The translations under genes were made by a program, and so were the position numbers. From assembly GCA_024734495.1 (NCBI GenBank), contig JALMQS010000681.1, positions 5,147,353 to 5,211,352 on the forward strand: a stretch of DNA of 64,000 nt, in the 5' to 3' direction. The notes below the pieces were generated by a model that was not told where the DNA came from, did not search any database, and saw only the letters and a list, made by a program, of their open reading frames with translations. Positions 4,572 through 31,875 of this stretch are shown here, piece after piece. This DNA comes from Forficula auricularia. Taxonomy: Eukaryota; Arthropoda; Insecta; Dermaptera; Forficulidae. Numbering within the stretch: position 1 is the first letter of the stretch; the number at the start of each line of letters is the position of its first letter.

Positions 4572-4768
4572 TAATTAAAATAATATACAACCAGATCTTT
4601 TAAGTGTCACGTTTATTTATAAGTATGTAAGGTTGACCAAGGATTTGTTTGTCCATCACTTGTTCAAGTCATTTTAGCCTTACAGCCAAAATGTCTGTCA
4701 GAATGCTACTTTTGAGGGCTGCACACTTATCCAACAGTTGGTTGATTTAGCAAATATATTTTATAGTT

Positions 4769-4932
4769 AGTTAGTTACTTTCTGTATTTCCTGAAGATGG
4801 GTTGATAGCCTGAAATATATATATTGAAAAAGAAAAAAAAAAAAAATTTAATTTTAATGTGAAATAAGTGACCCAGTATCCTTAACTCATAGTAAATCCA
4901 TATTAAATAAAATATTTATTTACTCTTATCTT
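4769..4932 (+). mobile_element. Retrozyme-like short insertion E1 with hammerhead motif
   Basis: A 164-bp insertion is flanked by an exact 12-bp duplication TATTTTATAGTT (4757-4768 and 4933-4944; the right boundary is ambiguous by up to 3 bases). It starts AGTTAGTTACTTTCTG, contains a hammerhead-like core at 4791-4815, an A-rich stretch, then AATGTGAAATAAGTGAC and CTTAACTCATAGTAAAT, and ends in TTTACTCTTATC. The same sequence forms the sense half of the insertion at 26930-27216. It has no coding capacity. The target duplication length fits target-primed reverse transcription. Penelope-like retroelements are the likely helper because they carry hammerhead motifs and mobilise small retrozymes. 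Confidence 0.65.
4786..4831 (+). ncRNA. Hammerhead ribozyme candidate, locus b
   Basis: The core is CTGAAGA (4791-4797), one extra T, a GGG/CC hairpin and GAAA (4812-4815). After GAAA, TATATATAT can form a minimal stem III by pairing with itself, leaving a plausible cleavage position before GAAAAAG. That GAAA can pair with TTTC immediately upstream of the core, giving stem I. The invariant C3, U4, G5, A6, G8, A9, G12, A13 and A14 positions are all present. The extra base after A9 is shared by the other loci in this window. Confidence 0.5.
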
Positions 4933-4944
4933 TATTTTATAGTT

Positions 4945-5699
4945 TGACCTGAGAGAAACAAACAGAGAAGATGATCTAAGTTAAATGAAACGTTTCTCTA
5001 GAAATCATAGATAAATTAACAAATAAATAAATAATTAAAATTGTTTTCAATATGAGAATAGAAATTTTAATTGAATATAAATAAATAATAAATAAATATA
5101 ATTGTGGACGATAAGCAAGAAGATGATAATACAATTTTGGTAATATTTGAGAGTGGTTGGTTGTCCATTTCATTTTCCAATATTTGAAATTTGGTCCAAT
5201 TTGCCTACCAAATGATTTCACAGGGAATTATGAAATTGAAGTGTTGCTAGAGTTCTAAACTGGATTACCTCGGGTCCATTTTTTTTTTTTTATTCACTTG
5301 TGTATTTACCGTTGCTTCCACTTCAACTTTGTTTATCGGATATGTTTGGTTGATTTTAGGTTAGTGCTTGAAAATCCAACGTGCCATGTTTTAGCATGCA
5401 AATGTGTTTTCCCATGATGACGTTCAAGAGTCAAACTATTTGTTATGTCTACGAACACAAGCCCAGGTCTTCTTTACATATTATAATTAGGTTAATTCAA
5501 ATTATTTTTTAATGAAATTCATTTAGGAACTAAATTAAAAAAATCAAACATGGGGTTGTGGGGAGGGGGGCTCTAATGGAAATTATCAAATAAGTCCTAA
5601 ACAATTAATTTTACGGCGAATTCTGTTAGAATCAAAGTTGTAGAAGAAGTGATTTTTGACAACTTTCGTTTAATGAAATTTCAAAAAAACTCCCTTAAG
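4945..5699. other. Unassigned sequence
   Basis: AT-rich sequence without a recognisable gene, terminal repeat or RNA motif. Confidence 0.35.
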
Positions 5700-6000
5700 G
5701 GGGGGGGGGAGGTTCAAAAAGTGAAAATTCTATCGCTTTGAAGGAAACTCAACCAAAATTTGTATACATTATCTGTAGGCTCCCAAAAAAGTAGAAATGC
5801 AAAAACTTGTCACCCAAAATGGGAGAAGGGGTCAAAAAATTAAAAGTCCAAGCCTTTGATCCAAACTCAATCAAGTTTTGTACACATAATCTGTGGGCCT
5901 CTAGGGATGTAGAAATGCAAAAATTAACCACTCGACAGAGAGAGTGAAAAAATGAAAATTCTAGACTTTTGGACCAAACTTAACCAAAATTTGTGGAAAT
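5700..6000. repeat. ~116-bp tandem repeat, about 2.5 units
   Basis: Successive units carry AAAATTCTA or AAAAGTCCA at about 5724, 5840 and 5955, each followed by a variant of CCAAACT(T/C)AA(C/T)CAA and TTTGT. Reverse-complement relatives occur at 49880-50160, and shorter relatives in the MITEs at 30480 and 52200. This is a dispersed tandem repeat unit, not coding. Confidence 0.6.
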
Positions 6001-6424
6001 CAATAGAAAGCAGGTACATATAGAGAAACAACTCTGCTACTCTCGGCAAAACAAAATCTTTTCAATTAAAACAAAGTACCTACATCAAATGGAAAAAGAA
6101 TTAATCCTCTACCAGTGTTGGTGAGGTTCGGAGAATGACCAGGGGGCATGTATAGGGTTGGCGGGATATATGATGACCGCAAGTGGCTCCAGGATGCAAG
6201 GATAGGTTTAGTGAGATGAAAAGGGATTAGAGGAGGCTAGCAAGAGGCCGTCAGTAAATAAAACCAAAATTCAGTTTTATGGCAAATCGAAATTATGGAA
6301 GACCATTTGGAGCATAAAGAGACCTTGAGAAGGCGGTTTGAGGTCCAGGGGGCGAAGTCCCCTGCCTATTAACAGGACCTCCGAATGCGGTCTTCGCAGT
6401 TATTAAAATCTAAAAAGTCTAAAC
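6001..6424. other. Unassigned, relatively GC-rich sequence
   Basis: About 6120-6400 is richer in G than its surroundings and contains a short hairpin around CAGGGGGCGAAGTCCCCTG. No coding frame or terminal repeat could be assigned. The phrase CTGCTACTCTCGGCAAAA near 6032 occurs again inverted near 6860. Confidence 0.35.
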
Positions 6425-7718
6425 CAGGTCTGTTCAAACGGCGGCCCAGCACGGCAATTAATGAGGCCCGACATAAAACTATAAATTTCCTTAAAACATT
6501 TTTATGTTACTGATACAATTTGACCTGATAATATTTTTTCTAAAATAAGAAGAAATTAGAAAATCCCCTAAAAGGTTTCGAAAAATTAAAGGCAGATTTT
6601 CAATTTTCAATGTGAAAAAATCGATATCGAGATTTCCGAAAAAATAATCACAATTTTGGCATATTTTGAACCATTTTTATTAGATTTAAATATTTTAACT
6701 GCAAACTTTCTGATTAAATATATGGCACTGCAATCAGACATGAAACTGAAATAAATATTTAATAATGTCTCTTTATTAAAATTTCATAAAAATGTTCTAC
6801 CCAGAAACAAATATTCCTCCTGGCCTAACAATAATTATTCATTTTTTAAAATGAAAGTTTTTGCCGAGAGTAGCAGAATTTTTATATATTGAAGGAGACA
6901 ATAAAAGAGTGTGTCTTCTGCTGGGATTGTAAATTTTATTTATTTATAACGAGACTATAGTTTCGTTATAAATAAATAAAATTTATAATTCCAGCAGAAG
7001 ACACACTCTTTTATTGTCTCCTTCAATATTAATTTTTTAGAAATATGAATTTACATATACCTACCTAAAGCTATTTTTGAGAATAAAATTCACTAAAATC
7101 CAAATTATAAACTCAACTATCAGGTGACAAAAATAACCCAGTTTAGAATACCTAATTAAAAATATTTTTTATCTCATATTTCCATTTTTTTAAATATTTA
7201 TTATTTCAGTATTTAAAAATCTAAAAAAAATGACTAAAAAGTGCGTGGATAGAATGATCTCTCTTTCTTTATAGCAGCTAAGGCAAGGATTTAAATACAA
7301 GTTCAGACATGTTTTAGAATAGAAGAAGTTAATTTCTTAATTTCTATTAATCTAGGAATGGCCTTTTGTCTATTTCGCTTGGACTAATTGGTTACTCGAT
7401 ATTATATATAGAGAGAACATTCAATTAATTCAATAATTTGGAAATGTTAAGAAATAATTAAACTCGATATACATATTTCTAAAAGACTTCAAATTGCTAA
7501 TAGAAGTAGATAAATGATTTAAAAACAAAATCCTGAAGGAAAAGAACTCAAAGATTATAATGCTATGATATTTTTGCTTTTTTTATCTTGGTGGATAATC
7601 TCATTGTTCTACATTATTAGCTATATTTTTATTAACAAATATCAATGGAATTAGTAAATTTAGGCATTTTTTTCCCTTCAAATGCGAGCCGTGTAAGCCA
7701 AAAGGTTGGACACCCCTG
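6425..7718. mobile_element. hAT transposon (1.29 kb, non-autonomous)
   Basis: The element is bounded by an exact 8-bp duplication GTCTAAAC (6417-6424 and 7719-7726). The left end is CAGGTCTGTTCAAACGGC. The right end, reverse-complemented, is CAGGGGTGTCCAACCTTT. These are classic hAT ends. No transposase frame remains. A 145-bp near-perfect hairpin (6886-7030) sits inside. The segment 7230-7390 resembles part of the hAT-like family at 14841-15846 (TGCG-GGATAGAA followed by a TTCAGACATG-type block). Confidence 0.8.
6886..7030. repeat. Near-perfect palindrome with ~66-bp arms
   Basis: The arms (6886-6951 and 6964-7030) read ATATTGAAGGAGACAATAAA out to TTATAACG and back, with a ~12-base centre GAGACTATAGTTT. 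The arms are nearly identical, so the inversion is young or maintained. The palindrome is nested in the hAT element. Confidence 0.8.
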
Positions 7719-7739
7719 GTCTAAACTATCTTTATTGCT

Positions 7740-7960
7740 TTTTTTTTATTTATGTATTATCACCGGAACAAAGTCCATTTCGACAACACATGAGTAAAGT
7801 TTTAGTAGGGTTAGTGAGGGAGCGGAGTTTTAGGCGGTAGAAATTTTTATATGCCAGCCAGGCTCGAACCCGGGTTTCCCACTTGAACATGGTCATCAAC
7901 GATGCTGAAGCGAGCCCAGCGCCTTAGCCAGTTCGGACAACCCGACTCCCCATATTTGTT
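7740..7960 (-). mobile_element. tRNA-derived SINE
   Basis: Read on the minus strand, the sequence has TGGCTAAGGCGCTGG (A-box-like) and, ~50 bases on, CCCGGGTTCGAGCCTGG containing the B box GGTTCGAGCC. This resembles a tRNA head with a long variable arm (serine/leucine-like). The body continues to a T/A-rich end near 7740. The 5' end (CGGGTTGTCCGAACTGGC) is at the right. Target duplications were not resolved. Confidence 0.6.
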
Positions 7961-8512
7961 GCTAAAAGCTAAAGAAATTTAAAATATTAATCTTCTACTT
8001 TGATATATTTTTGTTTTCTGAAAATTATGTTTATGTATTACCAATACTTAATCTAATAGAGTATTTAAATCCTTTGAAAAATATTCCAGGTTTGTTAATT
8101 ATAAATCTGGTCACTTTGTACGTAAATAAAATCCAAAATTCGAATAGAATATTAAATAGCGGTTCTATAGGACACAGAGAATCAGCCTTATAAAATCTAG
8201 GCTAATTGCGTTCTCTTTTTATTTTACCATGATAACAACAAACAAGTGCCACTTTATTTTGGTGAGCGTGTAACATGCACCAGGTCAACGCTCGCCAAAA
8301 AATAGAAAAGTCTAATTTGCAAAAATATATCAATGATATTATTACATTTAATTCAAAGATATTATTACAATTAAAATATTTACAACTCATAAATCTTTAT
8401 AAACTTAAATAAACAGCAACGGATAGTTGCTAAACTTTATCCAAATTCATTTGAAATATTAATATGTTTATTCCTTTATTATTACTCAGATATCACTTGC
8501 AATTTGCAGTTC
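7961..8512. other. Unassigned AT-rich sequence
   Basis: No gene, terminal repeat or RNA motif was recognised. Confidence 0.35.
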
Positions 8513-8870: not shown

Positions 8871-8929
8871 CTTAAAATCAAAAAGACTAAATTCTTTTTT
8901 GGTAAACAACTCAAGCTTGAAAAACATCA

Positions 8930-9560: not shown

Positions 9561-10248
9561 ATAAAAATTCTACACTGTATTATATACAAATTATAAATCT
9601 TGCAGTTGTAGCTTTGATAGACATATGATGAAAGATTGTTTGGATCATTTTATCTAAAGAGAAATTAGAAAATTATTCATAATATCTTAGCGTGTTTAGT
9701 GTCATTTTTAAATGAAGATTTGATTCTTTGATGGTTGAGTGTTTGTTTATCTGTAGAAGACTGAAACTAATATGAGACATTTTAATCAGAATGCACAAGG
9801 TTCCCATGCCTAATTCTGGAGTCGTTTTCAAACACTTAAGAATCAAAAGTTTTTATGTGAATATCACTTTTTGTAATTGTTGGTAGATACTGAAAGAATG
9901 GATCATGCCATTGTTATGAGTGCAAAGTAGCAAGAATCTCTAGTGGTTTCGATTTATATTTGTCGAAAACTGAACGAGTCTAGAAGCCGAAACGCTATAA
10001 TCTAAATTTAAAAATTGTTTTAAAATTTTCACGTAGAATGTCCTGAGTATATGGTGTATAATAAGAGAAATTTCGTACAAATTAATTAAAGGGTGTATAT
10101 TGAGACTTCTATTTTTTGACCCGCACCCCTATTTTATACCTCCCCCCCCCCCCCAAAAAAAAAAAAATATCTCTCTTTATTATAGGTTTCATTTTATAGT
10201 ATATTTCATTTTTCTTGTTTGTTGGTTTGTTTTATTTTAGTTTGAAAA
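9561..10248. other. Unassigned sequence
   Basis: No recognisable feature apart from a C-run and A-run near 10141-10168. Confidence 0.35.
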
Positions 10249-10890
10249 TCTTTCTAAAAAGGGTGCGGATAGAAAGTTTTAACTCCTTCCTGCTAGATAT
10301 ATCTTACAGTTCAAGCAAGTAAAAAACAAATCCAGACGAGTTTTAGTCGAATCAAAATTGTTCTCGCTGAAGAACTATTAAAATAATAATAATACAAAAA
10401 AATGATTAAAAATAAACAATTGTTGAATAATTTCAAGGGACAATTAAAATGAATTATTTTTTCCAAAAGGATGCTGATAGAAGATTTCAAATCCCTGCAT
10501 GGTATATCTTTCAAAGACAAGTTCAGACGAGTTTTAGCCGAATAAAAATTGTTCTCACTGAGGAACTATTAAAATAGTAACAATTCAAAAAATGATTAAA
10601 TAAAGATGATTCTATAATCTTTGGAATAATCCATTTCTAAAAACTCTCAAAATATATGATCAGAAATAACTAAGAGTTCTCTAGACAAGTCAAAGCTTTC
10701 TTATAGCAATAGAATTAGGAGAAATTTAAGATTTTCTTATAGAATAGGCTGATTTATTGTGGAAGATGGTCGATTTTCATCTCAGAATCTGGGTATTTTA
10801 AGTCACAAAATTTAATTTCTGACTACTACCCTCTCTCACACAAAGCAGTATCCGTTTGAGGCGAAGGTCGAAAAATATACTTTTATTAAA
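10249..10890. mobile_element. hAT-like non-autonomous family H, truncated copy A
   Basis: The sequence is nearly identical to 15070-15710: GGGTGCGGATAGAA, CCAGACGAGTTTTAG, AAAATTGTTCTCGCTGA, ACTCTCAAAATATATGATC and CAAAGCAGTATCCGTTTGAG. Both ends are missing compared with copy B. An internal block of ~190 bp is duplicated in tandem (10260-10440 and 10450-10620), as in copy B but not in copies C and D. Confidence 0.65.
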
Positions 10891-10919
10891 AAGAATTTAC
10901 TTTTTTAGGGACGAATCCA

Positions 10920-11090
10920 AGATTTTAGTGGAAACTACTTTTACATTGCACATCAGAGGGCTTCGCCCCTCAGAAATCGAACCCAAGCGCTAACTTGCTC
11001 TCCGAGAAGTTAGCCAAAGTCTTAGGACAAATCTCTCTCTGATTTGGAACATATAAGAAGAAAAAACTCCAAAAAGATACTTAAATCTTT
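10920..11090 (-). mobile_element. tRNA-derived SINE S3 copy
   Basis: Matches the SINE at 17496-18392: ACATTGCA-ATCAGAG, CCCCTCAGAAATCGAACCCA (B box inverted), GCGCTAACTTGC, TTAGCCAAAG and AAATCTCTCTCTGA. The tRNA-like head therefore reads on the minus strand with B box GGTTCGATTTC. An A-rich block with AAAAAGATACTTAAATCTTT follows on the right, as elsewhere in this family. Confidence 0.6.
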
Positions 11091-11099
11091 ACATTATTT

Positions 11100-11320
11100 A
11101 TTATTTTTATTTTTAACCCCCCTCCCGTCCCTTTATTTTTGGTTAGATTTCAACCAAAATCTAATCATCTCTTAATCTCAATGCGACAAAACTAGATATG
11201 AAATTTCGTTTTGAAATTTACACAAGTTTTTGAGCTAGAGTGTACACAAAATTTGGTAACGTACTACCAGACATTTTGACAAAATAATTAATAAATTTAA
11301 TCCTAATGTGTGTGTAGATA
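11100..11320. repeat. Interspersed repeat related to 50100-50320
   Basis: Shared blocks with 50100-50320 are: CCCCCTCC then TTTATTTTTGG, CAAAATCTAATCA, CTCTTAATCTCAATG, ACAAAACTA, TTTTTGAGCTAG, AATTTGGTAACG and ACATTTTGACAAAA. The copy at 50 kb lies inside a hAT element. Family unknown. Confidence 0.55.
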
Positions 11321-11379
11321 GAATGAAATTATATGAAATTTTTTTTTTTTTTACTTTTTATTTCGGTGATATTTAAATA

Positions 11380-14840: not shown

Positions 14841-15846
14841 GAGTGGCGTGCGGTCTATGGATGCTGTGGATGCGCCGCATTCCTAAAATTTCAAACATTT
14901 AGACTTAGAGTATTTTCATAAATATATAAGGTCGACTTTAAAATTTCAGGAGGATCTTTAAATTTTCAAATTATTATCCGCTATTTCAAATATTTTTATA
15001 AAAAACAATTTTTTGTTTTGAAAAGTAAATTGTTCCCGAAATTAAATAAAATTGTCACATAGCAATGATTTTTCCAAAAAGGGTGTGGATAGAAGGTTTG
15101 AACTCCTTCCTGGTAGATATATCTTCCAGTTCAAGCAAGTAAAAAACAAATCCAGACGAGTTTTAGTCGAATCAAAATTGTTCTCGCTGAAGAACTATTA
15201 AAATAATAATAATACAAAAAAATGAATAAAAATAAACAATTGTTGCATAATTTCAAGGGGCAATTAAAATGAATTATTTTTTTCCAAAAGGGTGCTGATA
15301 GAAGATTTCAAATCCCTGCATGGTATATCTTTCAAAGACATGTTCAGACGAGTTTTAGCCGAATAAAAATTGTTCTTACTGAGGAACTATTAAAATAGTA
15401 ACAATACAAAAAATGATTAAATAAAGATGATTCGAGAATCTTTGGAATAATCCATTTCTAAAAACTCTCAAAATATATGATCGAAAATAACTAAGAGTTC
15501 TCTAGACAAGTCAAAGCTTTCTTATAGCAAGAGAATTAGGAGAAATTTAAGATTTTCTTATAGAATAGGCTGATTTATTGTGGAAGATAGTCGATTTTCA
15601 TCTCAGGATCTGGGTAGTTTAAGTCACAAGATTTAATTTCTGACTCCTACCCTCTCTCACACAAAGCAGTATCCGTTTGAGGCGAAGGTCGAAAAATATA
15701 CTTTTAAAAAATCTAATGTTAAATTTGAAAAATAACGAAAATGATGCCGTATTCAAGAAATTTGCACAAAAAAGCGAAGATTAAAATAAAATTTCAAAAA
15801 ATGAAAGGTACTTTTTTCCTGGTTGAAAAGTCAGCAATCGCCACTG
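14841..15846. mobile_element. hAT-like non-autonomous family H, complete copy B
   Basis: The left end is GAGTGGCGTGCGGTCTATGG and the right end, reverse-complemented, is CAGTGGCGATTGCTGAC, giving a short CAGTGGCG terminal repeat. Flanks are ATCCCAAG (14833-14840) and ATCTTAAG (15847-15854), an 8-bp duplication with two mismatches. This copy has the internal ~190-bp tandem duplication also seen in copy A. No transposase frame is present. Confidence 0.7.
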
Positions 15847-19867: not shown

Positions 19868-20105
19868 TTTGTCATTTGGTGATCCATCCGAGTGTCATGC
19901 GCAATACGGCTATACGCAAAATGACGTTGGATTGTAGATAAATGGATCATATCTTTTTCTATCTTGGTCCAGACTTAAGACTCCGCAGACTCCAATAGCT
20001 TCAACCGCAGTAGTCTAGCGATATATTTCTTTTACAAAAAGCGTGATCAAAACAATTCTCGATAATATGTCAATTATTCTTTGATATATTAATGGGAAAA
20101 TTATA
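19868..20105 (-). repeat. Conserved repeat family R, copy 2
   Basis: Reverse-complement match to 35205-35445 and 1305-1565: GGTGATCCATCC, GTCATGCGCAATACGGC, AATGACGTTGGATTGTAG, GTCCAGACTTAAGAC and the AT-rich head ATTATTCTTTGATATATTAA. Confidence 0.65.
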
Positions 20106-21585
20106 AATTTATTTTTGTCTGTCTGGCTCTGTCTGGATTCTGTTAAAAGTTTGTTCCAGTGTCAATGTTTATATTTCCAAAGTGAGAACTCATTATATTT
20201 TGAGATCTAATGATTTAGAACTTCTTTTTAAAAAATACAGATAAACAGACAAAATCCAATTGATATATGAAAAGTATTAAACAGTTAAAACCAAAAGTCG
20301 ATAGTGAAAAAGCTTGTATTAGAATGCAGTACTTTTACTTGTGTGTAAGGTTTCAACTTTCAAACTCAAACTGTTTGCTGACAAAAATTGCCAAAACACC
20401 AAAAGTTGCAGAGACATGAATTTTTCACTTTTTCCTCTTTATAGTTGTAGGGAATATACATTTTTATCCAATTATAAAGGTCATACAATTTGAAATCTCG
20501 AGATGAATCGTTATTTTGCTATTTTGTTGTTGTTTTTTTAATAGCTTAGTAAATATTATTGGAACTAATATTTTGTAATGGTCAAAAGCTGTTACGTGAA
20601 GCCGCCATCTGCATTCCCTTTCGTTAGTCTCCAATTATCGGTATTCATTACAATAAAATACATATGATTTTAGGTTCGAGGGAGAGAGTGTGTGGATAAG
20701 AGGAGAGGATTCGAAACGATCCATTTGGCACCTGCATAAAATGACATGGGCTTTATGCTCTTGAAGGGAAGAATGAAAGGTAGGCCAGAGCCATTTGCTA
20801 GAATGGCTACAACAATGATTATTACACCTATCTGAAGCCTCTTCTGTTCCGTTGCTGTCGTTGGCTAAATGGCCACTACACGATCAAATAGAAGTGGGAG
20901 GTGGCTCATCAAACAGGAGGGAAAATAGCAATGCAAGCAGATATTTGCCAAATCGTGACCTACCGAGATAAAAAAATATATATATATATTAGAAATGCAA
21001 ACAGCCACTCTACTGGATTTGTAACAAAGAGCTAGAACTAATAACATTACATATCTGAATGAGAATTCTTATGTTTCTTTTCAATTATGTACTCTATATT
21101 TATTAGGTTAATCATGTTAAATATATTACTTGGGTTAATAATATTATTTTCTTAAAAATTTTAAAATTTGTCTCCGGCAGCTAGGACCAAACAGGAGTGT
21201 ACTTTCCTCTCACTCCAAAAAATTTTCATAGTCTTTTTAGCAACAAAAAATTTGACTTCTCTAATAAAAATAATAATCCATAAAAACATAATATAAATTT
21301 AAGTATTTTAGTCTTTTGTCAATCTTTTTAGCGGGAAAAAAATGTGTATTTTTAAAAATTTAATAAAATTTAATTTATTCATTTGCTATTTTGATATTTA
21401 AATTATGTACTCTATATTTATTAGGTTAATCATGTTAAATATATTTTTTTTAATATGTATTAAAAAGATTGATGAAATTTATTTTATTTATTTATTATTT
21501 TGTTATTTGATATGTACTTTTTGTCTTAATTAGGTTAATATAATCAAATACATATAGATAATTGATAGCGTTTTTCTTTAGGAGA
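20106..21585. other. Unassigned sequence including a less AT-rich island
   Basis: Most of it is AT-rich. About 20640-20905 is less AT-biased, purine-rich in parts, and not repeated elsewhere in the window (GGAGAGAGTGTGTGGATAAG; CTCTTCTGTTCCGTTGCTG). No convincing exon or protein could be read, so it is listed only as an island of different composition. Confidence 0.3.
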
Positions 21586-21860
21586 CTGACTGGTATAAAT
21601 ATGCAATTGGATGTTGATGAAGGCAGTCCACGGTGGTTGTAAAAAATAAGACTAAAATGGTTTTATTAATTTACATTTATTCGTTAAACCGACGTTTCGG
21701 AGATTTATTCTCTCCTTCTTTTACGTTACCCTGAAGAAGGAGAGAATAAATCTCGAAACGTCGGTTTAACTAAATAAATGTAAAATAATAAAACCATTAT
21801 TAGTCTTATTTTTTACAACCACCGTGGACTACCTTCATCAACATCAATTGCGTATAGATA
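21586..21860. mobile_element. Penelope-like/hammerhead palindromic insertion
   Basis: Inverted arms (about 21603-21720 and 21731-21851) carry GCAATTGGATGTTGATGAAG, CAGTCCACGGTGG and AAACCGACGTTTCGG, meeting at a hammerhead-like core. Flanks GTATAAAT (21593) and GTATAGAT (21852) could be a target duplication. The outer arm text (ACTGGTA, AAGGCAG-CCAC) recurs at 28700-28947, so these are two members of one family. No coding sequence is present. Confidence 0.6.
21725..21770 (+). ncRNA. Hammerhead ribozyme candidate, locus c
   Basis: GTTACC (21725) precedes CTGAAGA (21731-21737), an A, a GGAGA/TCTC hairpin, GAAACGTC (GAAA 21755-21758) and GGTTTAAC (21763-21770). GGT pairs with ACC and AAC with GTT, giving stem I with a two-T bulge. 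GAAACGTC contains self-complementary ACGT, so two transcripts could form stem III together, and cleavage would fall after GTC. The left arm carries a truncated inverted copy with TCTCC, which restores a fifth stem II pair. Confidence 0.55.
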
Positions 21861-22982
21861 ATATATATATATTGGTCCAAATATCAAAAAAGTTTTATAA
21901 AAAATCATAATTAAACGTGAATTTCACATATGGGATTTTACCTTGTCGGGATTTTGGCTGTTGGGATTTTGGGTTGTCGGGATTTTTTGTGTTAATAAAG
22001 ATATTAAAGAATTAATAGAGATATTAAATAAAAATTTCGAAGCTATTGAGGGAGATTTAAACATTTCATGTTTAGTTTTTTTGTTTATTTCATATTTAGT
22101 GTAGGTTATTCGAGTACTTTGTTACTTTCACATATTTATTCATTAAATTATGTATTCATATATAGGATATAATGTGAAGTATACCGATCTGAAAAATTCT
22201 AATTGTTATGTGAAGAGCTATCGAAAGCTCGTATTCAAAGCCAGATAGTAAGACAAAAGAGGATGCTTGAAAATTATTTCTCCCCTATTTTAAATAATAT
22301 CTAAGTATGAAAAAAACAAAAACAAAAAATACCTTTGTGGTAAGTTTTAAGCAAATACTAAAATTTTTAGAAACGTAACTCTAATGGCCTTAGGCTCCTG
22401 GCAACAGACGTTTCTGGTAAAGATTTAAGTGATAGTGCGGGAAAAACAAATGCCCATTACTAGGCTAGCTAAAATGTGACTTGAGCCCTCGTGGTATAAT
22501 ATTTTAATTTAAAAAGATTTTTATAAAACGAATCATTATTTCATTAGCACGAGATCAAAAAAGAATTTGCGACTTTTTGTAAAAATTTCGCGGATAGACG
22601 CATCCCTCTCTTGCTATTTTTTAACAAGCTCCAACTCGCAAAAGTCAAGTCCAGACAAGTCTTATTCGATTAGAGATTATTCTTGAATTCTGTTATTCTA
22701 GGAATGACCATGCAAACTTTGTTATAAACGATATTTGTTATATAGGGAGAAATTCTACTCTTGTAAAATTCAGAATAAATATGCAAATAAAGAAATAATT
22801 TTAAGAGAATTGTATGCCTAATCCTAGGAGTGGATGTGAATCCAATTTTTTAAAATGCTTAAGTCACTAACAAAACAAGCAAATCTTACGCCCTTTTAAA
22901 AATATTCGATTCATGTATCGAGTTCACTCGACAATTTTCACTTTTTTATACATTGGTCGTGTGTAGGTACCTATACATATAT
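21861..22982. other. Unassigned sequence; weak family H relic near 22580-22710
   Basis: AT-rich. A stretch near 22580-22710 (CGCGGATAGACGCATCC, AAAGTCAAGTCCAGACAAG, AGGAATGACCATGC) is a distant relative of hAT-like family H and of the hAT interior at 7230-7390. No other feature was found. Confidence 0.35.
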
Positions 22983-23766
22983 GTATGCGCCGCCGTGAGT
23001 TTCGCAACCATAAGTCTCAGAGCTGCGAAATTAGAAACTTAATCTCTCTATATGCTAGAGCAAGCTTTTGGTTGAAATCGGACACCGGAAGTTGACATTT
23101 ACATGAAAGATTTTTTTTTATTTTCTCAAAAACGGTTGTAACGATTTTTTTTTTAAACTAGTACATTTATAAAATGTCAAGAGCTATTAGTCGTGTATAA
23201 ATTTTAATCAGATTGAAATAAAGGAAGGAGGGTGTAAATTAGAAGTGTCGCGATGATTTCAAATAAGTGAGAATTTGATTTATCCTACTTATAATATTTT
23301 AATCGTCCTCGAAAATGATAATAATTAATTTCACATTACAATACAAATCAGCTGGTGTGCTCACCACACAACTTCCACATTTCCATTTATTTGAAGTAAT
23401 CGCGACACTACTAATTTACAGCCCATTCCTTTATTTTTTTTTTTTTTGATTTAGGTACTCAAAAAAAACTAACCATTTTTTTTCGTAGCACGACACACCT
23501 ACTTTACACCCCCTTCCTTTATTTCAATCGGATTAAAAATTTGACACAACTAATAACTCATGACACTTGATAAATACACTAATTTTCAAAAAAATCGTTA
23601 AAGCAGTTTTTGAGAAAATAAAAAAAAAACGAAAAATCTTTTATGTAAATGTCCACTTCAGGTTTTCCGATTTCAACCAAAAGCTTGCTGTAGTCATAGC
23701 ATATTTCGAGCTTACCGTTAAGTTTCGAATTTCGTAGCTCTGAGAATTATTGTTGCGAAATAAGAA
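22983..23766. mobile_element. Fold-back element with ~260-bp inverted arms
   Basis: The left arm (22983-23245) and right arm (~23490-23766) are imperfect inverted repeats: CATAAGTCTCAGAGCTGCGA against TCGTAGCTCTGAGAATTAT, AAGCTTTTGGTTGAAATC against GATTTCAACCAAAAGCTT, and AAATAAAGGAAGGAGG-TGTA against TACACCCCCTTCCTTTATTT. Inside, GTGTCGCGATGATTTCAAAT and its inverse at ~23391-23415 form a second pair. No transposase frame was found. This is a MITE or fold-back element of unknown superfamily. Confidence 0.6.
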
Positions 23767-24773
23767 CATACGTATATACCCATTGACCAATGGATTTTTG
23801 GCACCTTTTGGCCTCTGGAGACCACAATTTCCGGTTTCATGTCATAAGTCCGATTTTGAACTATCGGCATCGATTCCTTCCACCTAGAAGTTGCAAAATT
23901 AAATTAACTTTTTTCATTTCTGAGATACAAGCTCTCAAATAGTCAGGACCCAGACAGGTCATCGCAATACTTCCCCATTATATTCTATAGAATATAAATG
24001 TAAAAGTAAAAATTATTAATTAAATTAAACCTCGATAATAGTAATGATGATTAAAATTATTTACTCAAGAACTGATTATTTTTAGTGAAATTAAAAACTA
24101 ATTTAATTCAATTTTAATTAATTTTTATTGCATTTTTTTATTCTTTTATAAATTAAAAAGCTTAAAATTTCCATATTATCCAAATAATCTGCTCTATAAT
24201 TGCACTAATATTATTTCGCAACTGTCTTGAGATGCTCATCTCCGAGGCATCATCATCCCCTCTTGCTCGCAATCTAGTTTTATTTGCCCGCTCTCTTCCC
24301 TTATTTCTTGCACGCTTTGCAATCTTGATACTTCCGCCACTCCTACCCTACATTCTGCACCCCAGCCACCTTTTTCGCCCAATTTCTTTGTTAAATTTCC
24401 GCATCTTATCCTCACTAGCGAGTTTCTTTATCTTTTTCTAATCTTTTCTTTTATCTAGCCACACAATATTCCTCAAAAAGAATTTTTAACTACATCTTTT
24501 TACTCCTCAAAGTATTTCACTGGATAAGTTTATTTGCTGTTTAATTTAATTCTTTATTCAAAAATTTAGAACGTAATAAAACGGACTAGATGATTATTGT
24601 TACAGTAAAAGTACTTTTTCCTCTTTATTATTTTGAAAAAGGGAAATTGGTGATAATGGCCATGGCTTTCTCACCGCCAAACGTTAGAGTGAACTTAATT
24701 TAATCAGTGAAAAAAGATACTTTTTAAAGAATTTTACTTTTTGATAATACTACATTAAAAGAGCAGTTATAAA
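23767..24773. other. Unassigned sequence with C/T-rich island 24232-24441
   Basis: The island is pyrimidine-rich (CTCTTCCC, CGCCACTCCTACCCTAC) and stays open in one frame for 69 codons, but the product is low-complexity Leu/Ser/Phe/Pro and is most likely a composition artefact. The rest is AT-rich without features. Confidence 0.35.
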
Positions 24774-25680
24774 TCTATATAAATAAAAATGTACTGTTAC
24801 GCTTAAGTGATACGTTGAAGGATCTCCGAAAGTTCTTCATCGATTTCTTTGAAATTTTCACACCACAAGATTCTATTCAAATACACGAGTGTTTTTATAT
24901 ATAGTGTTTTTATAGATATCACACCTGTTGCATGTAAAAAATATTATTTTTTAGGAAATAACGCCAGCGCCTCTCTGGGGGGGGGTAAAAGCAAACAAAC
25001 AAGATGGCCGATAATAGCTTTTTGGAAATCTTTCAACTGTCAATATTATTTTTGGTTAAGGGAACAATTTTGACAAGTAATATATAATTCATTTACTGTT
25101 TTAATACCTATTCTATAATTATTTCCATTTTCAATTTATTTTCAAAACTATTATTATTTTTTAAATATATATAAATTTTTGATCAAATCAATTTTGACAG
25201 GAAAGCAATATATCAATATCATTTATCATTTTTTTTTAATATGTATATTGTTTTATTCTTATTTTATTAAAAGAAAAATCTTTGTCTTCTTTATTTAATT
25301 TCGTTTGTAGAAATATAAATATCACTTTATTCATAAATATAGTATTTTCTTTACCTCTGTTGTTTGCATTTCTTTGTTTAGTATTTATGTGTTAACCGCC
25401 CTTGCTCTTCTTCGTCTCCCATTAAATATTAAATATATATTATTTAATTATTTTACTTAATTAATTATAAACCTGGCCCAAAATTTAGATATACCAATCG
25501 GAACACCAAACGGACATATGTTGCGAATATAGTTTCGATACGTCCAGTGGTTTAGGCGTGAAGCATAAGTTAGTCACAGTAACGCGTGGCCGGGTCAGCT
25601 ATTATAAATTTTAACCATAAAACGAGACCCTCCCCGCCAGGGGCTGGTGGAAGCCGGGCCGAAGGCCGGGCGTCAGCTAG
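24774..25680 (+). mobile_element. Helitron 1 (non-autonomous, 907 bp)
   Basis: Starts TCTATATAAATAAAAATGTA after an A and ends GCGTCAGCTAG before a T, matching the Helitron rule of 5'-TC, 3'-CTAG and insertion between A and T without target duplication. Close to the 3' end, GCCGGGCC-GAA-GGCCGGGC forms the expected subterminal hairpin. It shares both ends with Helitron 2 but has ~400 bp of extra AT-rich interior (about 25070-25470). No Rep/helicase frame is present. Confidence 0.8.
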
Positions 25681-25753
25681 TAGTTATATAAGTTTATGAA
25701 AATTAGAGACGGTTTTTCACAATAAATATGTGATATAAAGCATTATAAATATG

Positions 25754-26221
25754 CAGGAATTATTTAACGGGTTATAGTGGTGTTTCACAAAGTGGAAATA
25801 AAATTAAAAAAATTAAAAATTCTTTTAAATTATTGTTGTTGTTGTTCGAACAAAGACATCCTATTTGAAATGTACCTGACTCTGACCAGACAATTTGTTC
25901 AAAACCCATTTTCTCCCTTCCACATACCTTTAAATTCAATCACTCAATTATTTCAACGCTCATTGGCTCACCCCCTCTCCACTCGCCCTGTACTATAATA
26001 ACATCGATACAATGTAAAAATTTTATATTCAGTTTTCTGTTAAACCTCCTGATGAAGGGTTCATAGCCCGAAAATATGTATAGAGATAAATAAAAAAATC
26101 TCCAAAATAATTTAAAAGAATTTTTAATTTTTTTAATTTTATTTCTACTTTGTGAAACACCACTATAACCCGTTAAATAATTCCTGTGTTTAATATGTTT
26201 CACTATAATCCCTAAACTTTA
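25754..26221 (+). mobile_element. Hammerhead-bearing palindromic insertion E5
   Basis: A 468-bp insertion is flanked by an exact 12-bp duplication ATTATAAATATG (25742-25753 and 26222-26233). Long inverted arms (CAGGAATTATTTAACGGGTT, TGGTGTTTCACAAAGT and AATTCTTTTAAATTAT, 25754-25837; mirrored at 26104-26187) enclose a hammerhead-like core at 26049-26073. A short extra tail (CACTATAATCCCTAAACTTT) follows the right arm. The inverted partial-copy layout fits Penelope-like elements. No coding capacity. Confidence 0.65.
26044..26085 (+). ncRNA. Hammerhead ribozyme candidate, locus d
   Basis: CTGATGA (26049-26055), an extra A, a GGGT/GCCC hairpin and GAAA (26070-26073) form the core. CTC just upstream can pair with GAG about ten bases after GAAA. 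The short AATATGTAT segment between would have to serve as stem III and pairs imperfectly. Confidence 0.45.
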
Positions 26222-26335
26222 ATTATAAATATGTGTTTTGTATATTTTTACTTTATTTTTACTATTATTTTTGATTAAAAGATTAATGAGTATTATTAAA
26301 GTTGTTATAGGGAAATAAGGACTATATCTTTTATG

Positions 26336-26410
26336 CAGATAATTTATATTTTATTGTCAACGTTTCGTCAACTTTGTTGACTTCTTCAGGAGCTCAAATA
26401 GTTAACTTCC
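26336..26410 (-). ncRNA. Hammerhead-like motif, locus e
   Basis: On the minus strand CTGAAGA (26389-26383) is followed by an A, GTCAAC/GTTGAC hairpin and GAAACGTT (GAAA 26366-26363). Flanking text (TATTTGAG before; GTCCTTATTTCCC after) matches locus a at 4228-4315. Stem I pairing is only two bases, so activity is doubtful. Confidence 0.4.
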
Positions 26411-26766
26411 CTGCATATTTGTCAATTTTATCATTATTCTTTCTTAGTAAATATATCAAGGCATGTCATCAACATCAATTAGACTGAAATTTTTTCTTTT
26501 TTAAAACTTAAAAATATCTTTCCTATATCAGCTTTAATAATTTAATCGACGGACATAAATAATCACAATAGTTAATGAGTATCGGAATATCGTATATATT
26601 TTATGTGAAAATATCGAACATTTTCTGCATCAGAGACATCACGATGCCACGCTGGAGCATTGATTATATATATTAAGCACGAGGGGGACTACCCCAAAGT
26701 ATCCTTGCTGTCTGCGGGCATCAGGGTAGCAAGTAAATGGTGTTTTTTTGTGTTCCAAGTGTTTGT

Positions 26767-26907
26767 GGATATGTCAAGTCACTTGTCTACGCCGATAAAC
26801 CAGAGACGATTGAACACTTGGAACACAACATTCGGCGAATTATTTGCGAAATACGGCCGCAATTGCTGCGAAAAGTGTGTGAAAACAAATATACACATAA
26901 TATGTAG
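26767..26907 (+). pseudogene. Tc1/mariner transposase C-terminal remnant
   Basis: An open frame of 46 codons ends in TAG (26905-26907). It reads GYVKSLVYADKPETIEHL followed by EHNIRRIICEIRPQLL and RKVCEN. This is the characteristic C-terminal end of mariner-like transposases: the (L)WGYVKSxVY motif just after the last catalytic acidic residue, then a helix ending in VxEN. LW is visible immediately upstream in a shifted frame, indicating a frameshift. The DDE catalytic core is absent. The following non-coding tail is shared with 50751-50998. Confidence 0.7.
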
Positions 26908-26929
26908 ACCAATAGAAAGCTAGAAATGC

Positions 26930-27216
26930 TTAGTAGAGATTGTGGTGTTGGTGCAAGGTGAAACATCTTTAATACAGATAAGAGTAAATAAATATTATAT
27001 TTAATATTGATTTACTATGAGTTAAGGATATTAGGTCACTTACAGTTACTTTCTGTACTTCCTGAAGATGGGTTGATAGCCCGAAATATATATATTGAAA
27101 AGAGAAAAAAATTATATCTTTTAATTTTTTAATTTTAATGTGAAATAGGTGACCTAGTATCCTTAACTCATAGTAAATCAATAGTAAATATAATATTTAT
27201 TTACTCTTATCTTTAT
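26930..27216. mobile_element. Retrozyme-like short insertion E2 with hammerhead
   Basis: A 287-bp insertion is flanked by an exact 12-bp duplication AGCTAGAAATGC (26918-26929 and 27217-27228). It consists of an inverted partial copy (TTAGTAGAGATTGTGGTGTT to TTAGGTCACTTAC) followed by the sense unit found in E1 (CAGTTACTTTCTGTACTTCC to TTTACTCTTATC). The inverted part carries ~50 bp (GGTGTTGGTGCAAGGTGAAA) missing from the 3' end of the sense part. No coding capacity. Confidence 0.75.
27057..27105 (+). ncRNA. Hammerhead ribozyme candidate, locus E2
   Basis: CTGAAGA (27062-27068), T, a GGGT/GCCC hairpin and GAAA (27083-27086) form the core. TATATATATT after GAAA can fold into a minimal stem III (or pair with a second molecule), placing the cleavage site before GAAAAG. 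That GAAA (or a nearby one) can pair with the TTC upstream of the core. Compared with locus b, stem II gains a C, restoring the third G-C pair. The extra base after A9 is again present. Confidence 0.55.
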
Positions 27217-27418
27217 AGCTAGAAATGCAAAAACTGGGTGCCGGTTGGGGTGGATGTGGGCGGTGCAGGAGATGGAGTGCAGTTGTGGGGGATGCGGGGG
27301 TGGGAGGCGCGGTTGGGGTGGGATTGGACCTAGTGGGGATGCCGTGGTGGGGGCGAGGTGTGTGGTTTAGGGAGGGAGTCAGGGGTTACCGTGCATCGCT
27401 CGGTGGCTCTAGGTACTA

Positions 27419-28390
27419 AATCTTTATTACTCGACCTGCTAAGAGGCACAAGTCCTCGGTGGCTAGGTCAACAAAACATCAATAGAAATTAACTATAGAA
27501 ACTAATAAACATAAATACAAATAAATTACAAGAAATTAACAATTAACAAACAAGAAAAAGAAAAAAAATAGAAATGTATGCTCATTAACAAATAACATGA
27601 TGATAGATTTCCATCAAAAGACAAAACGTAATTTAAATAATTCCGAGCAAAAACCCGATACCAGGAGTAAACGACGCATTAGCCATCCCGACATTTGCCA
27701 TGAGTTGTTAAGGAAACCTGGTCAAAACATTAACAAGAATGGTATGACCTCTCTTTACCTCAGGTAATCTCTGCTTGTGAGAACTAAATAAAATTTTGCA
27801 CAACTCTAGGACATTAGGATTTGGCAAAATGTATAATTAATTTAATCATAGGGGGCAGAGGGCTATAATCCCAAGTAGTAACAGACAGTCTATTCCACAA
27901 ACCAATGTCAGATCATACAAATGAATGTAAACCGATATTTTTCAATAATCTTGGCTTACGAATCTTTTTTCTATGATCAGCTTTACGTAAATAACCTGGT
28001 TCCTGAAATCTATTCGTTATTTCCTCCCAACTCCTAAAACCCTTATACGCTTTGAAAATCACTTTCAATTTAGCCCATTCCCTTCTCTCCAATAAACTAG
28101 ACCATACTAATTCATTAATCATTGAAGTGACACTATTAACCCTATCTAATTTATAATTAGTAGAGATTGTGGTGTTGGTGCAAGGTGAAACATCTTTAAT
28201 AAAGATAAGAGTAAATAAATATTATATTAAATATTGATTTACTATGAGTTAAGGATACTAGGTCACTTATTTCACATTAAAATATCTAATTTACCAAAAA
28301 CTAATCTCAAATCCGCCCTTCTTTGTACCATATCAATTTTTCTCTCTAATCTCAAAATTATCTTCCCAATAAAACCAGGTTCATAAATAT
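27419..28390 (-). mobile_element. 5'-truncated CR1/Jockey-type LINE, split by E3
   Basis: The minus-strand element is read from ~28390 to its 3' end at 27419. Coding remnants run 28388-28294, then after insertion E3, 28142-27814. Recognisable pieces are ERKIDMVQRRADLRLVFGK, VTSMINELVWSSLLERREW and DIGLWNRLSVTTW, matching the C-terminal thumb region of LINE reverse transcriptases (IQRRAAR..., LxxR, WNxLP). An in-frame TGA near 27915 shows decay. The ~390-bp 3' UTR ends in a TAATAAAGATT-type tail and matches 46383-46683. Confidence 0.75.
28154..28282. mobile_element. Retrozyme-like short insertion E3
   Basis: A 129-bp insertion sits inside LINE coding sequence with an exact 11-bp duplication TATCTAATTTA (28143-28153 and 28283-28293). 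Removing it restores the LINE reading frame, so the boundaries are certain. The content is the 3' two-thirds of the E1/E2 unit in inverse orientation (TTAGTAGAGATTGTGGTGTT, GGTGCAAGGTGAAACATC, ATTTACTATGAGTTAAGG, ACTAGGTCACTTATTTCAC). The hammerhead core is missing, as expected for 5' truncation. Confidence 0.8.
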
Positions 28391-28699
28391 TAAAAATATT
28401 TTCCTTTGTTTTATTTTAATTTAAAGTTGTGAACTTCTAAAAAAACATCCTTTACCTACCTATGTCGCCAGATATTTTCCAATAAAAAAAATATATGAGG
28501 TTAGTAATCTAACACGTAAAACTTGTCAAAACATATCATATAGTTTATGATATGATTTTTAAATTCAAAGAAGACTCTAAAATCCATGTAATAATAATAA
28601 TAATAATTAGATATCAAGATAGAGACACCGTTAAATTTTATATTCTTTAAATTTAGATAGAAATATTTTTGCAACGAAATTTTCTCTGGAGAGAGACAG
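28391..28699. other. Unassigned AT-rich sequence
   Basis: No recognisable feature. Confidence 0.35.
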
Positions 28700-28950
28700 A
28701 CTGGTAGAACTTTTAATTGAATGTAATGGAAGGCAGCCCACTGAACACTGCTGTGGTGAGAAGAAGGAAACATTTTATTTGTTTCATTCATTGACCCCTT
28801 GAAACCCTAAAGAAGGATGGAAGAATCCTCCGAAACTTCGGTTTGAAAGGAAAGGAGGAAGGATTCCAATAAATTTCACCTTATTTAATATGTGTTAATT
28901 TTTTTCTTTCCTCACTACCCCTGGACTGCCTTCCATTACATTCAATTAAT
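28700..28950. mobile_element. Degenerate Penelope-like/hammerhead palindrome
   Basis: Arms TTGAATGTAATGGAAGGCAG and GCCC (from ~28714) return inverted at 28921-28947 as CTGCCTTCCATTACATTC. They enclose a degenerate hammerhead at 28802-28844: AAACC, CTAAAGA, A, GGAT/ATCC hairpin, GAAACTTC, GGTTT. The five-base stem I (AAACC/GGTTT) is intact while core G5 and the cleavage triplet are mutated. Arm text relates it to 21586-21860. Confidence 0.5.
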
Positions 28951-29104
28951 AGATAGAAATAAAACCAGAGCAAAAATCTTCGGTGTAAACTGAATTGCAG
29001 TGAGTTAGAATCGAATGATATGTCTGGGAGATTTCTATCGACGCGCCTAGAGATAGGCAACACTGCGTTTTCACTGAATTAAAGCTAAGTTTTGGAATTG
29101 CCAG

Positions 29105-29235
29105 TTTTTTTTATTTATTCACCCTTCCGCCAACGATTCGGACCCTCAATGTTATCCTTCTTCAAGCATATTTAATAACTAGCCTCTGCCTTGAAGGAAT
29201 GATAACACTGAAGATCCGAAACGAATTTTAATTAA
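29105..29235. repeat. Degenerate hairpin with GAAACG-type motifs
   Basis: AACGATTCGGACCCTCAATG and TTATCCTTCTTCAAG on the left mirror CTTGAAGGAATGATAAC and TCCGAAACGAATTT on the right. It resembles an eroded member of the hammerhead palindromes, but neither strand keeps the full core. Confidence 0.4.
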
Positions 29236-29890
29236 AAAGTATGTATAGATATGGTATTTTGTCGCTGTACCCGTGTTTTTAATTCATAATTAATCAAATT
29301 CTTTCAATTGAAATTTTTTTAAATATAAATATGAAAACAGAGAAAAATAATTTAGAAACAATAACAAGCTTTTTTTTATTAAAGCCAATAAATTTCCAAA
29401 TAAAATAAAATGATGAATGATTGTGAAAGGAAAAGAGAAGATTAATAATATTCGAAATGTCCGATTGAGCTTAATGGTCCATTGAACAAAAAAAGAGAAA
29501 ATGGGCGAGCAATTGCAATTCAATTTTTATCGCGTATATAGGTATGCATATACTTGAGAAAGAAATTTATAGAGGAGACATTCCTAATATATAAAATGGA
29601 ACCTGGTTAAATTGATATAGGGAATATTCTGTATTGAAAATTAACAGAGGGAAAAAAGTAAATTTAAGAGAGATTGAAAAAATGTCGAGATCAATGGCAA
29701 TGAAAATAAAACTCAGAAAGATATGGTATCATGTGAAATGAAATTACAGCCCAAGTCTGGAACAAACTAAAATTGAAATAGAAATAAGTTTACTTTTTAT
29801 TCCTATTTGCTTTATTATTTATTTCAAATTATATTGAAAACTTATATATGTATTAGAAGAAAAAACATTTTAATTTAATTAATATTATTG
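29236..29890. other. Unassigned AT-rich sequence
   Basis: No recognisable feature. Confidence 0.35.
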
Positions 29891-29895
29891 TTCAG

Positions 29896-30207
29896 TAACA
29901 AATCAGAGAAAAAAGAAAACAATTAAACAACGTGTTAAATCGACCAATCGCAACGTTTCGCCAATTTATTGTGGCTTCATCAGGCTCATCTTGATCAAAT
30001 TATTTGAAAACACTAGTTATTCAATTTTTTTTCTTGCCAATTAGAATACATATGCAAACAATCTGAGTAATTTATTTATATAACACCATGCATTGTTTAG
30101 AGTAGCAATAAAATCAGACAGACCACCGTAAACCTTCGATTTCGACTTGTGATTGGATATAACACGGTGTTTAATTGTTTTCTTTTTTCTTCTGATTTGT
30201 TACTTTT
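29896..30207 (-). mobile_element. Hammerhead-bearing palindromic insertion
   Basis: Arms GTAACAAATCAGA, AAAGAAAACAATTAAACA and CGTGTTA (29896-29944) mirror TAACACGGTGTTTAATTG, TTTTCTTTTTTC and CTGATTTGTTAC (~30160-30207). The flanks AATATTATTGTT and AATATAATGTT are a possible imperfect duplication. A minus-strand hammerhead-like core lies at 29956-29983. Confidence 0.55.
29941..29992 (-). ncRNA. Hammerhead ribozyme candidate, locus g
   Basis: On the minus strand, CTGATGA (29983-29977) is followed by an A, a GCCA/TGGC-type hairpin and GAAACGTT (GAAA 29959-29956). GC upstream pairs with GC downstream, so stem I is short and imperfect. ACGT provides a self-complementary stem III for a dimer. 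Confidence 0.45.
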
Positions 30208-30299
30208 AATATAATGTTAGTTAAAATACATGTAGTTGGGTATATAAAAAAAAGAGCTCATAATAATATAAAAGATTGGGTTAAATATTATATTGGCAT

Positions 30300-30622
30300 A
30301 TGTTGCAGTAAAACCCCGTTTTTAGTAAGAACGGGTTCATACTAGTTAAAACGCATTTCACTGAATTTTTTAAACGAAAATGTCAAAAATTACATCCTCA
30401 TTAGAAGCAAAGTTGTAGAGGATGTAATTGTTTTCAATTTCGTTTAAAAATTTTTTGAAAAAACATCCAAAATGAGGCGGAAGGTTAAAAATAAAGATTC
30501 TAGACCTTTAGACCAAACTTAACCAACATCGTAAATTCTAGTTGCCATAAAGGTATTCAGTGAAACGCGGTTTAACTAATAAGAACAGGTTTTTACTAAA
30601 AAACGGGTTTTTAATGCAACAT
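30300..30622. mobile_element. MITE with long TIRs (ATGTTGCAGTAAAA), copy 1
   Basis: The left end reads ATGTTGCAGTAAAACCCCG then TTTTTAGTAAGAAC and TTAAAACGCATTTCACTG. The right end is its inverse (CAGTGAAACGCGGTTTAA, AAAACGGGTTTTTAATGC). Arms are ~75 bp. The interior has a second inverted pair (TGTAGAGGATGTAATTG against TTACATCCTC) and a tract related to the 116-bp repeat at 5700. A second copy lies at 52103-52519. Likely a TA-targeting DNA transposon derivative. Confidence 0.7.
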
Positions 30623-31101
30623 TTATATATATAACTGAAATGTATTCAGAAATTCCAGGCGCCAATGACCTTAGCAGCCGATGCGCCTTTAAACTCCCAC
30701 TAATAATAATAATAATAATTTAAAAATGCATTAAAAAATAGAAAATTAATTTTTCTTAAGTCTCAAAAAAAATTTACACTACGAACAAAAGCATGTGCGC
30801 TTATTTTATTTTTATTTCAAGTTCAAATCTCCCATGGTTTGACAGCAAAACTTCAACATTAAGGTAGAATTGGGCTGGTCATATGGCTCAGCTTTCGCAC
30901 AAGACAAAAATTGTAGTCTAAAAAACTAAAAAAAAAAAAAAAAAACGCTTATTATTTTTCATAAATATCTTACATTTGATGATAGAGTTATTGGTCTGAT
31001 AATTTTCAATTTGGAGGGGTTTTTTTTAATAAGATCATTATATTGGATTTTTTTCATTGATTTAGAATAATTTTGAAAGATGTTATTAAATAGTGTGAAT
31101 T
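30623..31101. other. Unassigned sequence
   Basis: AT-rich with small (TAA) microsatellites near 30700. No feature recognised. Confidence 0.35.
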
Positions 31102-31299
31102 ACACGATTTTCTAGGACTAAACACCCCAACGCACTTAAATTGGATACTAACCGAACGAACGCATTCGCCAACTCGTTTATCCCTATGACATCTAGAGAC
31201 TGGAACTCTCTTCCTCCGACCGTCTTCCCAGCAACATATAACCTTCAATCTTTCAAGACACGCATCCACGAACATATTCAACTCCGACCCAATCCCTAA
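31102..31299 (+). pseudogene. LINE ORF2 C-terminal remnant, open to its stop
   Basis: A 65-codon plus-strand frame ends in TAA at 31297-31299. It contains RFSRTKHPNALKLDTNRT, NAFANSFIPMTSRDWNSLPP and YNLQSFKTRIHEHIQL. This is the C-terminus of a CR1/Jockey-type LINE ORF2: NSFIPMTxRDWNSLPxxVFP followed by a YNLQxFKxRxHxH tail. The 5' part is truncated. The same family is seen at 59427-59560 (plus) and 62455-62900 (minus). This copy has the fewest lesions. Confidence 0.75.
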
Positions 31300-31402
31300 A
31301 TCTCTTCTTATTTCTAAGATACAAGGGTCCACCGCGGACTTCAGAGGTTGAACATTTTCGGTGCAACTTCTTCGTGTATCAGTATCATTATAAAAAAAAA
31401 TA

Positions 31403-31666
31403 CAGTAGAACCTCGTTTATCCGGACTAACTGGGACCAAAGGCAATCAGGATAATCCGGATATATGGGTCAAAGAGAGAGTAAATCCACTTCAATCCCCC
31501 GCGTCTCTCTTTACTCCGTTCCGACGTCAATATAAAAATATCAATATCAAATCAAATTTTTGGTGAAATTATAATTACATCAGAGCTAAAAATTATTATC
31601 TGTGTGATCATTTATTAAAATAAAAATGTCTACAAATCCGAAGGGCCGGATAAACGAGCTGTACTA
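31403..31666. mobile_element. pogo/Tigger-like MITE
   Basis: After a TA, the left end reads CAGTAGAACCTCGTTTATCC and GGA. The right end is GGCCGGATAAACGAGCTG followed by TACTA. These ends match pogo/Tigger-type terminal repeats (CAGT-GAACCTCG-TTATCCGG). ~260 bp, no coding sequence. Confidence 0.65.
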
Positions 31667-31705
31667 CTCTTAAAGTGTAGCCAAGGGGACTTTTTATACT
31701 AACAT

Positions 31706-31866
31706 TTATTAAAGATAAGAGTAAATAAATATTATATGTAATTTAATGTTAAACAAGTGACCAAGAATCCTTAACTCATGTAAATGAATATTACATATAA
31801 TATTTATATACTCTTATCTTTATTAAAGATGTTTCACCTTGCACCAACACCACAATCTCTACTAAT
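31706..31866 (+). mobile_element. Retrozyme-like short insertion E4
   Basis: A 161-bp insertion has an exact 9-bp duplication TACTAACAT (31697-31705 and 31867-31875). It begins with a short inverted piece (TTATTAAAGATAAGAGTAAA) and continues with the sense 3' portion of the E1/E2 unit (AACAAGTGACCAAGAATCC, TAACTCATG, ATACTCTTATC, AAAGATGTTTCACCTTGC, ACACCACAATCTCTACTAAT). The hammerhead core is absent. It carries the complete 3' end that E1 lacks. Confidence 0.75.
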
Positions 31867-31875
31867 TACTAACAT

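Follow-up and report, generated by a model that had tools for sequence, protein, structure and literature searches.

Four short inserts in the Forficula auricularia genome resemble pseudo-long terminal repeat insertions of a Penelope-like element

Results

The window analysed here is a stretch of 64,000 bp from the genome of Forficula auricularia (assembly GCA_024734495.1, contig JALMQS010000681.1, positions 5,147,353 to 5,211,352; all coordinates below refer to the window), which has a GC content of 30% and contains no N. It harbours four short inserts, designated c1 to c4, that lack coding sequence and are compared here with the pseudo-long terminal repeats (pLTRs) of Penelope-like elements (PLEs). 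The inserts measure 164 bp (c1), 287 bp (c2), 129 bp (c3) and 161 bp (c4) and belong to one family, with pairwise identities of 84.7–97.3% in the ten pairs of pieces having more than 40 aligned bases. Exact target duplications directly adjoin the insert ends in all four cases. That is, c1 (4769–4932) lies between two copies of the 12-mer TATTTTATAGTT (4757–4768 and 4933–4944), c2 (26930–27216) between two copies of the 12-mer AGCTAGAAATGC (26918–26929 and 27217–27228), c3 (28154–28282) between two copies of the 11-mer TATCTAATTTA (28143–28153 and 28283–28293) and c4 (31706–31866) between two copies of the 9-mer TACTAACAT (31697–31705 and 31867–31875). For c1, the position of the right end has an uncertainty of three bases (4932–4935), as TAT can be assigned to the element or to the duplication. 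A first-pass annotation of this DNA had listed these four insertions as one family with duplications of 12, 12, 11 and 9 bases, all of which was borne out.

Random site pairs with the same spacing, allowing ±3 bases, yielded a duplication of equal length in only 2, 0, 3 and 8 of 3000 trials for c1, c2, c3 and c4, respectively. In addition, a paralogous empty site for c2 was found at 50758–50970. There, the insert is absent and the 12-mer AGCTAGAAATGC is present as a single copy (50931–50942, minus strand). The joined flanks of c2 align across 50970–50801 on the minus strand with 81.6% identity, gaps counted, and the left and right flanks overlap at the empty site by exactly this 12-mer, which is the strongest proof of insertion among the four. 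Corresponding empty sites for c1, c3 and c4 were not found within the window. The duplication trials and the empty site of c2 argue against chance repeats as the source of the inserts.

In sense orientation, the longest copies start with AGTTAC, followed by a hammerhead-like core; next come a stretch rich in A or T, a region able to form a hairpin, and a first end, CTCTTATCTTTAT. In some pieces a C-rich tail of ~42 nt follows this first end and finishes with CTCTACTAA. Insert c1 is a direct copy on the plus strand that carries the core and has a tail-less 3' end. Insert c2 starts with an inverted partial copy (26930–27042, minus strand) bearing the tail on its outer end (about 26930–26971), followed by a direct copy with core and tail-less 3' end (27043–27216, plus strand). 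Insert c3 has a single orientation (minus strand) and comprises the 3' part of the unit plus the tail (about 28154–28198), being 5'-truncated downstream of the hammerhead. In c4, an inverted partial copy whose outer end is tail-less plus three bases (31706–31737, minus strand) precedes a direct copy of the 3' part plus tail (31738–31866, plus strand), which is likewise 5'-truncated downstream of the hammerhead; the join to the inverted arm is ambiguous by a few bases. The AC-rich tail of c4, as judged from alignment and composition, covers 42 nt (31824–31865, plus strand). The alignments agree with the annotation that two inserts, c2 and c4, begin with an inverted partial copy. As to the sense unit of ~215 nt reconstructed there, the union of the copies indeed amounts to about 205–215 nt, but this "unit" combines different copies and is not an occurring repeat.

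Six of the eight insert termini fall into two clusters ~42 nt apart, at reference positions 11–17 and 56–59. The tail-less cluster comprises the right ends of c1 and c2 and the left end of c4, and the tailed cluster the left ends of c2 and c3 and the right end of c4. In this assignment the right terminus of c1 was placed by eye at 11–14, as the 12-base match of the script failed, and the left terminus of c4 includes one mismatch. The left terminus of c1 and the right terminus of c3 remain and represent cDNA stops. At most ~3 bases separate the starts of the direct arms of c1 and c2, and the direct arms of c3 and c4 also have neighbouring starts, which lie ~26–36 nt beyond the predicted hammerhead cleavage point. 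The tail is C-rich; 0.56% of the 29-mers on both strands of the window match its core in C count and scarcity of G. Insert c3 including the tail folds better than most shuffled sequences (z −2.04; 7 of 200 shuffles as good).

In c2 and c4, that is in two of the four inserts, the left arm is inverted and stands head to head with the right arm. Each insert has one tailed and one tail-less outer end, and its two arms meet at inner ends that correspond to different places in the unit. The best spacer-free palindromes within 40 bases of the joins had half-arms of 3 and 4 bases, as compared to a random mean of 4.3; the script needs arms without a spacer (it missed an inverted repeat at 21599–21855), and the result thus speaks against spacer-free palindromes only. 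The inverted repeat at 21599–21855 is itself a near-palindromic repeat of 257 bp that is 91% self-complementary and includes a CTGAAGA...GAAA core at 21731.

The hammerhead-like cores of c1 (4791–4815, plus strand; predicted cleavage after 4825) and c2 (27062–27086, plus strand; predicted cleavage after 27096) consist of CUGAAGA, one extra U, a stem II of three and four Watson-Crick pairs, respectively, and GAAA, and by eye a weak, AU-only helix III can be added. Neither c3 nor c4 has the core. The annotation was right in assigning a core to two inserts and truncation to the other two, but the core deviates by an additional base that separates CUGAAGA from stem II. A viroid hammerhead with an extra base at the same place was reportedly described by De la Pena and Flores in 2001. 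A strict scan that allowed no extra base and required stems I, II and III retrieved no motif from the window. A looser scan, considering only core and stem II with zero or one extra base, retrieved seven motifs, all of them with the extra base (4239+, 4791+, 26049+, 27062+, 48103−, 29983− and 26389−), whereas 100 second-order Markov sequences contained 0.22 such motifs on average and never more than 3. Rfam searches gave no match in the whole window at the gathering score and no hammerhead at E ≤10 in 25500–32500, 27040–27160 and 26020–26420, regions that lie outside c1.

Several of these motifs belong to further repeats. At 25754–26186 lies a second PLE-like insert, with arms of 85 nt that are 97.6% complementary and use the same end site, and with a hammerhead-like core at 26049; a possible duplication comprises 6 bases only and is not adjacent on the right. 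At 29894–30204 (minus strand), inverted arms of 48–49 nt surround the core at 29983, and the AT-rich flanks are similar without being exact duplicates. The segments 4224–4315 and 26310–26404 are ~80% identical copies of another motif family in opposite orientation (cores 4239+ and 26389−), whose stem II sequences differ by one compensating pair and one G-U.

BLAST searches with four query sequences against the window returned the four copies c1 to c4. Further matches at E ≤0.01 were A- or AT-rich pieces of 16–29 bases, with the exception of 57 aligned bases at 26044–26099. Two patterns, derived from the tail and the core, did not match any viral contig. A general motif pattern likewise remained without match, and a second one hit two loci; these were dismissed as chance since the matches are located within, or extend across, open frames of at least 100 aa. 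A tRNA search of the window was negative. Apart from frames running off the window ends, two stop-to-stop frames reach at least 120 aa. The longest open reading frame (ORF; 38016–38960, minus strand, 315 aa) is gag-like: Pfam matches it weakly and below cutoff, to Retrotrans_gag and to the Arc capsid domain, its end resembles a zinc knuckle by eye, and none of 6717 candidates proved to be a relative at E 0.001. Overall, three of ten chosen ORFs gave Pfam matches, all of them weak, and the six-frame Pfam scan of 20001–35000 yielded no match of any kind. The window also includes an array of 13 copies of a 20 bp unit (36272–36533) and a dispersed repeat family sharing several matched segments of 62–98% identity (10248–10996, 15068–15817, 54005–54519 and 60568–61008).

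Discussion

On the basis of four copies in one 64-kb window, we consider it likely that a PLE enzyme produced c1 to c4 as insertions consisting of the pLTR only. We describe them as PLE-like because they share an optional tail, an inverted shorter pLTR, 5' truncation and short duplications, and because neither tandem copies nor a unit junction were found. The PLE traits present here are the two discrete 3' ends, the inverted shorter pLTR in two of four inserts and the short duplication in all of them. The inserts thus appear to behave like PLE pLTR insertions, which falls short of a proof of membership. The two 3' ends ~42 nt apart go beyond what the first-pass annotation had noticed; in conjunction with truncation, inversion and duplications, they are, to judge from the accounts cited, the published signature of Penelope pLTRs and their tails (PMC3846280, PMC11167929).

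Indeed, PLE pLTRs of 193–218 bp have been described, with the inverted pLTR being 37 bp shorter, and PLEs of Adineta vaga, such as Pen2a_Av, have an optional tail of 31 bp on one inverted pLTR and duplications of 8–10 bp, which are absent in some copies (PMC3846280). The inserts resemble these elements in a pLTR of ~200 bp, in the shorter inverted pLTR, in the optional tail at one end, in the short duplications and in 5' truncation, whereas they have no ORF between the pLTR pieces and c2 and c4 lack the palindromes seen at the Adineta joins (PMC3846280). Among the peculiarities of PLEs, a curation guide names 5' truncation, short 3' extensions and inverted pLTRs (PMC8969392). In Poseidon of Anolis carolinensis (PAc), reverse transcription starts within the RNA at an AC-rich stem-loop, where two adjacent sites define the tail, and the hammerhead cuts upstream of these start sites (PMC11167929). 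The same account calls the tail unique to PLEs and attributes it to the two internal start sites. Our inserts are alike in the AC-rich, putatively internal start region, in the upstream hammerhead-like core, in the apparent extension of both target strands and in two adjacent start sites that would define a tail, of 30–40 bp in PAc (PMC11167929). According to reviews, PLEs carry minimal type I hammerheads without helix III or loop contacts, some of which map to pLTRs and which may work as dimers (PMC7761336, PMC6155905). The predicted hammerhead of c1 and c2 is probably of this minimal kind. In the anole element, cleavage by the hammerhead was observed only with protein present, and hammerhead mutants were still inserted (PMC11167929).

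Mechanistically, we infer that a linear transcript carrying the pLTR, derived from the PLE itself or from a short derivative, would serve as template, and that the enzyme would cut the target with a stagger of 9–12 bases. Copying would begin internally in the RNA, at one or the other of two sites ~42 nt apart, which flank the AC-rich stretch, and would end near a common point, possibly the 5' end of the RNA (c1, c2), or prematurely (c3, c4). In c2 and c4, both cut strands may have been extended, one from each start site, with the two cDNAs subsequently joined head to head.

Several points weigh against an origin from a PLE. The link relies on published descriptions rather than on an aligned PLE sequence, and a full-length element carrying this pLTR was not seen within the window. 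Reverse transcriptase or GIY-YIG domains were not detected in any of the six frames of 20001–35000 (Pfam, E ≤0.05), the remaining 49 kb being represented in this search by seven chosen ORFs. The ORF of PAc begins at stem II of the hammerhead (PMC11167929), whereas in c1 joined to the tail the frames are interrupted by stop codons until the tail is reached, and it is only inside the tail that an open ATG frame starts. Helix III is absent in the PLE hammerheads covered by the reviews (PMC7761336, PMC6155905), whereas a weak one can be drawn here. Four hammerhead segments fold no better than shuffled sequences (z +0.70 to −1.35), and at minimum energy c1 is predicted to take a fold other than a hammerhead. 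Finally, the near-identical 5' ends of c1 and c2 would also suit a true short unit.

The first-pass annotation had interpreted the family as retrozymes, and it was right that the inserts are retrotransposed and have true duplications, that a hammerhead-like core is present and that a link to Penelope is likely. For a non-LTR (non-long terminal repeat) retrozyme, a circular self-cleaving RNA of ~205–215 nt would be the element itself, and the PLE enzyme would merely copy it. Such elements of animals are alike in small size, low GC, multiple copies, hammerhead, target duplications and a suspected PLE enzyme (PMC7229834), and the core in two of four copies as well as the 5' end common to c1 and c2 would suit this origin, too. 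However, animal retrozymes are described as head-to-tail repeats of 150–450 bp with canonical type I hammerheads, giving rise to partly circular RNAs of ~170–400 nt and thought to spread through RNA circles (PMC7229834, PMC7761336), and neither tandems nor a canonical core were found here. None of the four inserts contains head-to-tail repeats, the window holds no such array, and a junction of tail to start, searched in five spellings, is missing from the window. Moreover, an extra base interrupts the core, helix III would be AU-only at best, and Rfam reports no match where searched. The predicted cleavage site also does not coincide with the 5' ends of c3 and c4, which are located beyond it. 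We therefore consider a retrozyme very improbable and abandon the label, and the published size range also contradicts the suggestion that these units are among the smallest of their kind.

A twin priming event as performed by long interspersed nuclear elements (LINEs), acting on an unrelated non-coding RNA, is hardly credible either. LINE-1 insertions, too, can combine inversion with a target duplication, but twin priming predicts one variable internal site and is disfavoured by the outer ends of c2 and c4, all of which fall on the same two sites. These ends also lack poly(A) or a simple repeat. Closer to the PLE origin favoured here, of which it is a narrower form, is a stand-alone non-autonomous family resembling short interspersed nuclear elements (SINEs), whose own linear transcript of ~165–210 nt, starting at AGTTAC, would be copied in trans by PLE machinery, with priming at both strands of a staggered cut and one of two internal start sites being used on each strand. 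Random truncation would seldom be expected to produce the coinciding starts of c1 and c2, and the copies are non-coding, with no PLE ORF in 20001–35000. However, this start is common to two copies only, and pLTR-only products of an autonomous PLE transcript would look identical, and we rate such a SINE-like parasite as rather unlikely. No published report of this insert family was seen in the literature searched (Penelope, solo, pLTR), which is no proof of absence.

For the origin of the inverted copies of PLEs, self-priming has been proposed because palindromes are common at the joins of such copies in Adineta (PMC3846280). In the case of c2 and c4, two separate cDNAs joined mid-insert explain the structure better than one snapped-back cDNA, because the inner ends of the arms differ, the tail is confined to one of the outer ends, and the joins lack a spacer-free palindrome. 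In vitro, the anole enzyme cut and extended both target strands, with the start site being apparently alike between strands (PMC11167929). The inserts in the window fit this type of two-strand priming, although two copies do not settle the matter.

Small hammerhead-bearing insertions should not be called retrozymes unless tandem copies or circles are found. The copies in the window are short and clean, which makes the start and stop of each cDNA directly readable. Should the SINE-like parasite prove true, its insertions would be a record of priming on two strands in vivo, providing an alternative to self-priming for head-to-head PLE copies. If the pattern seen here holds genome-wide, it would favour priming on both target strands, rather than self-priming, as the way in which inverted copies of PLEs arise.

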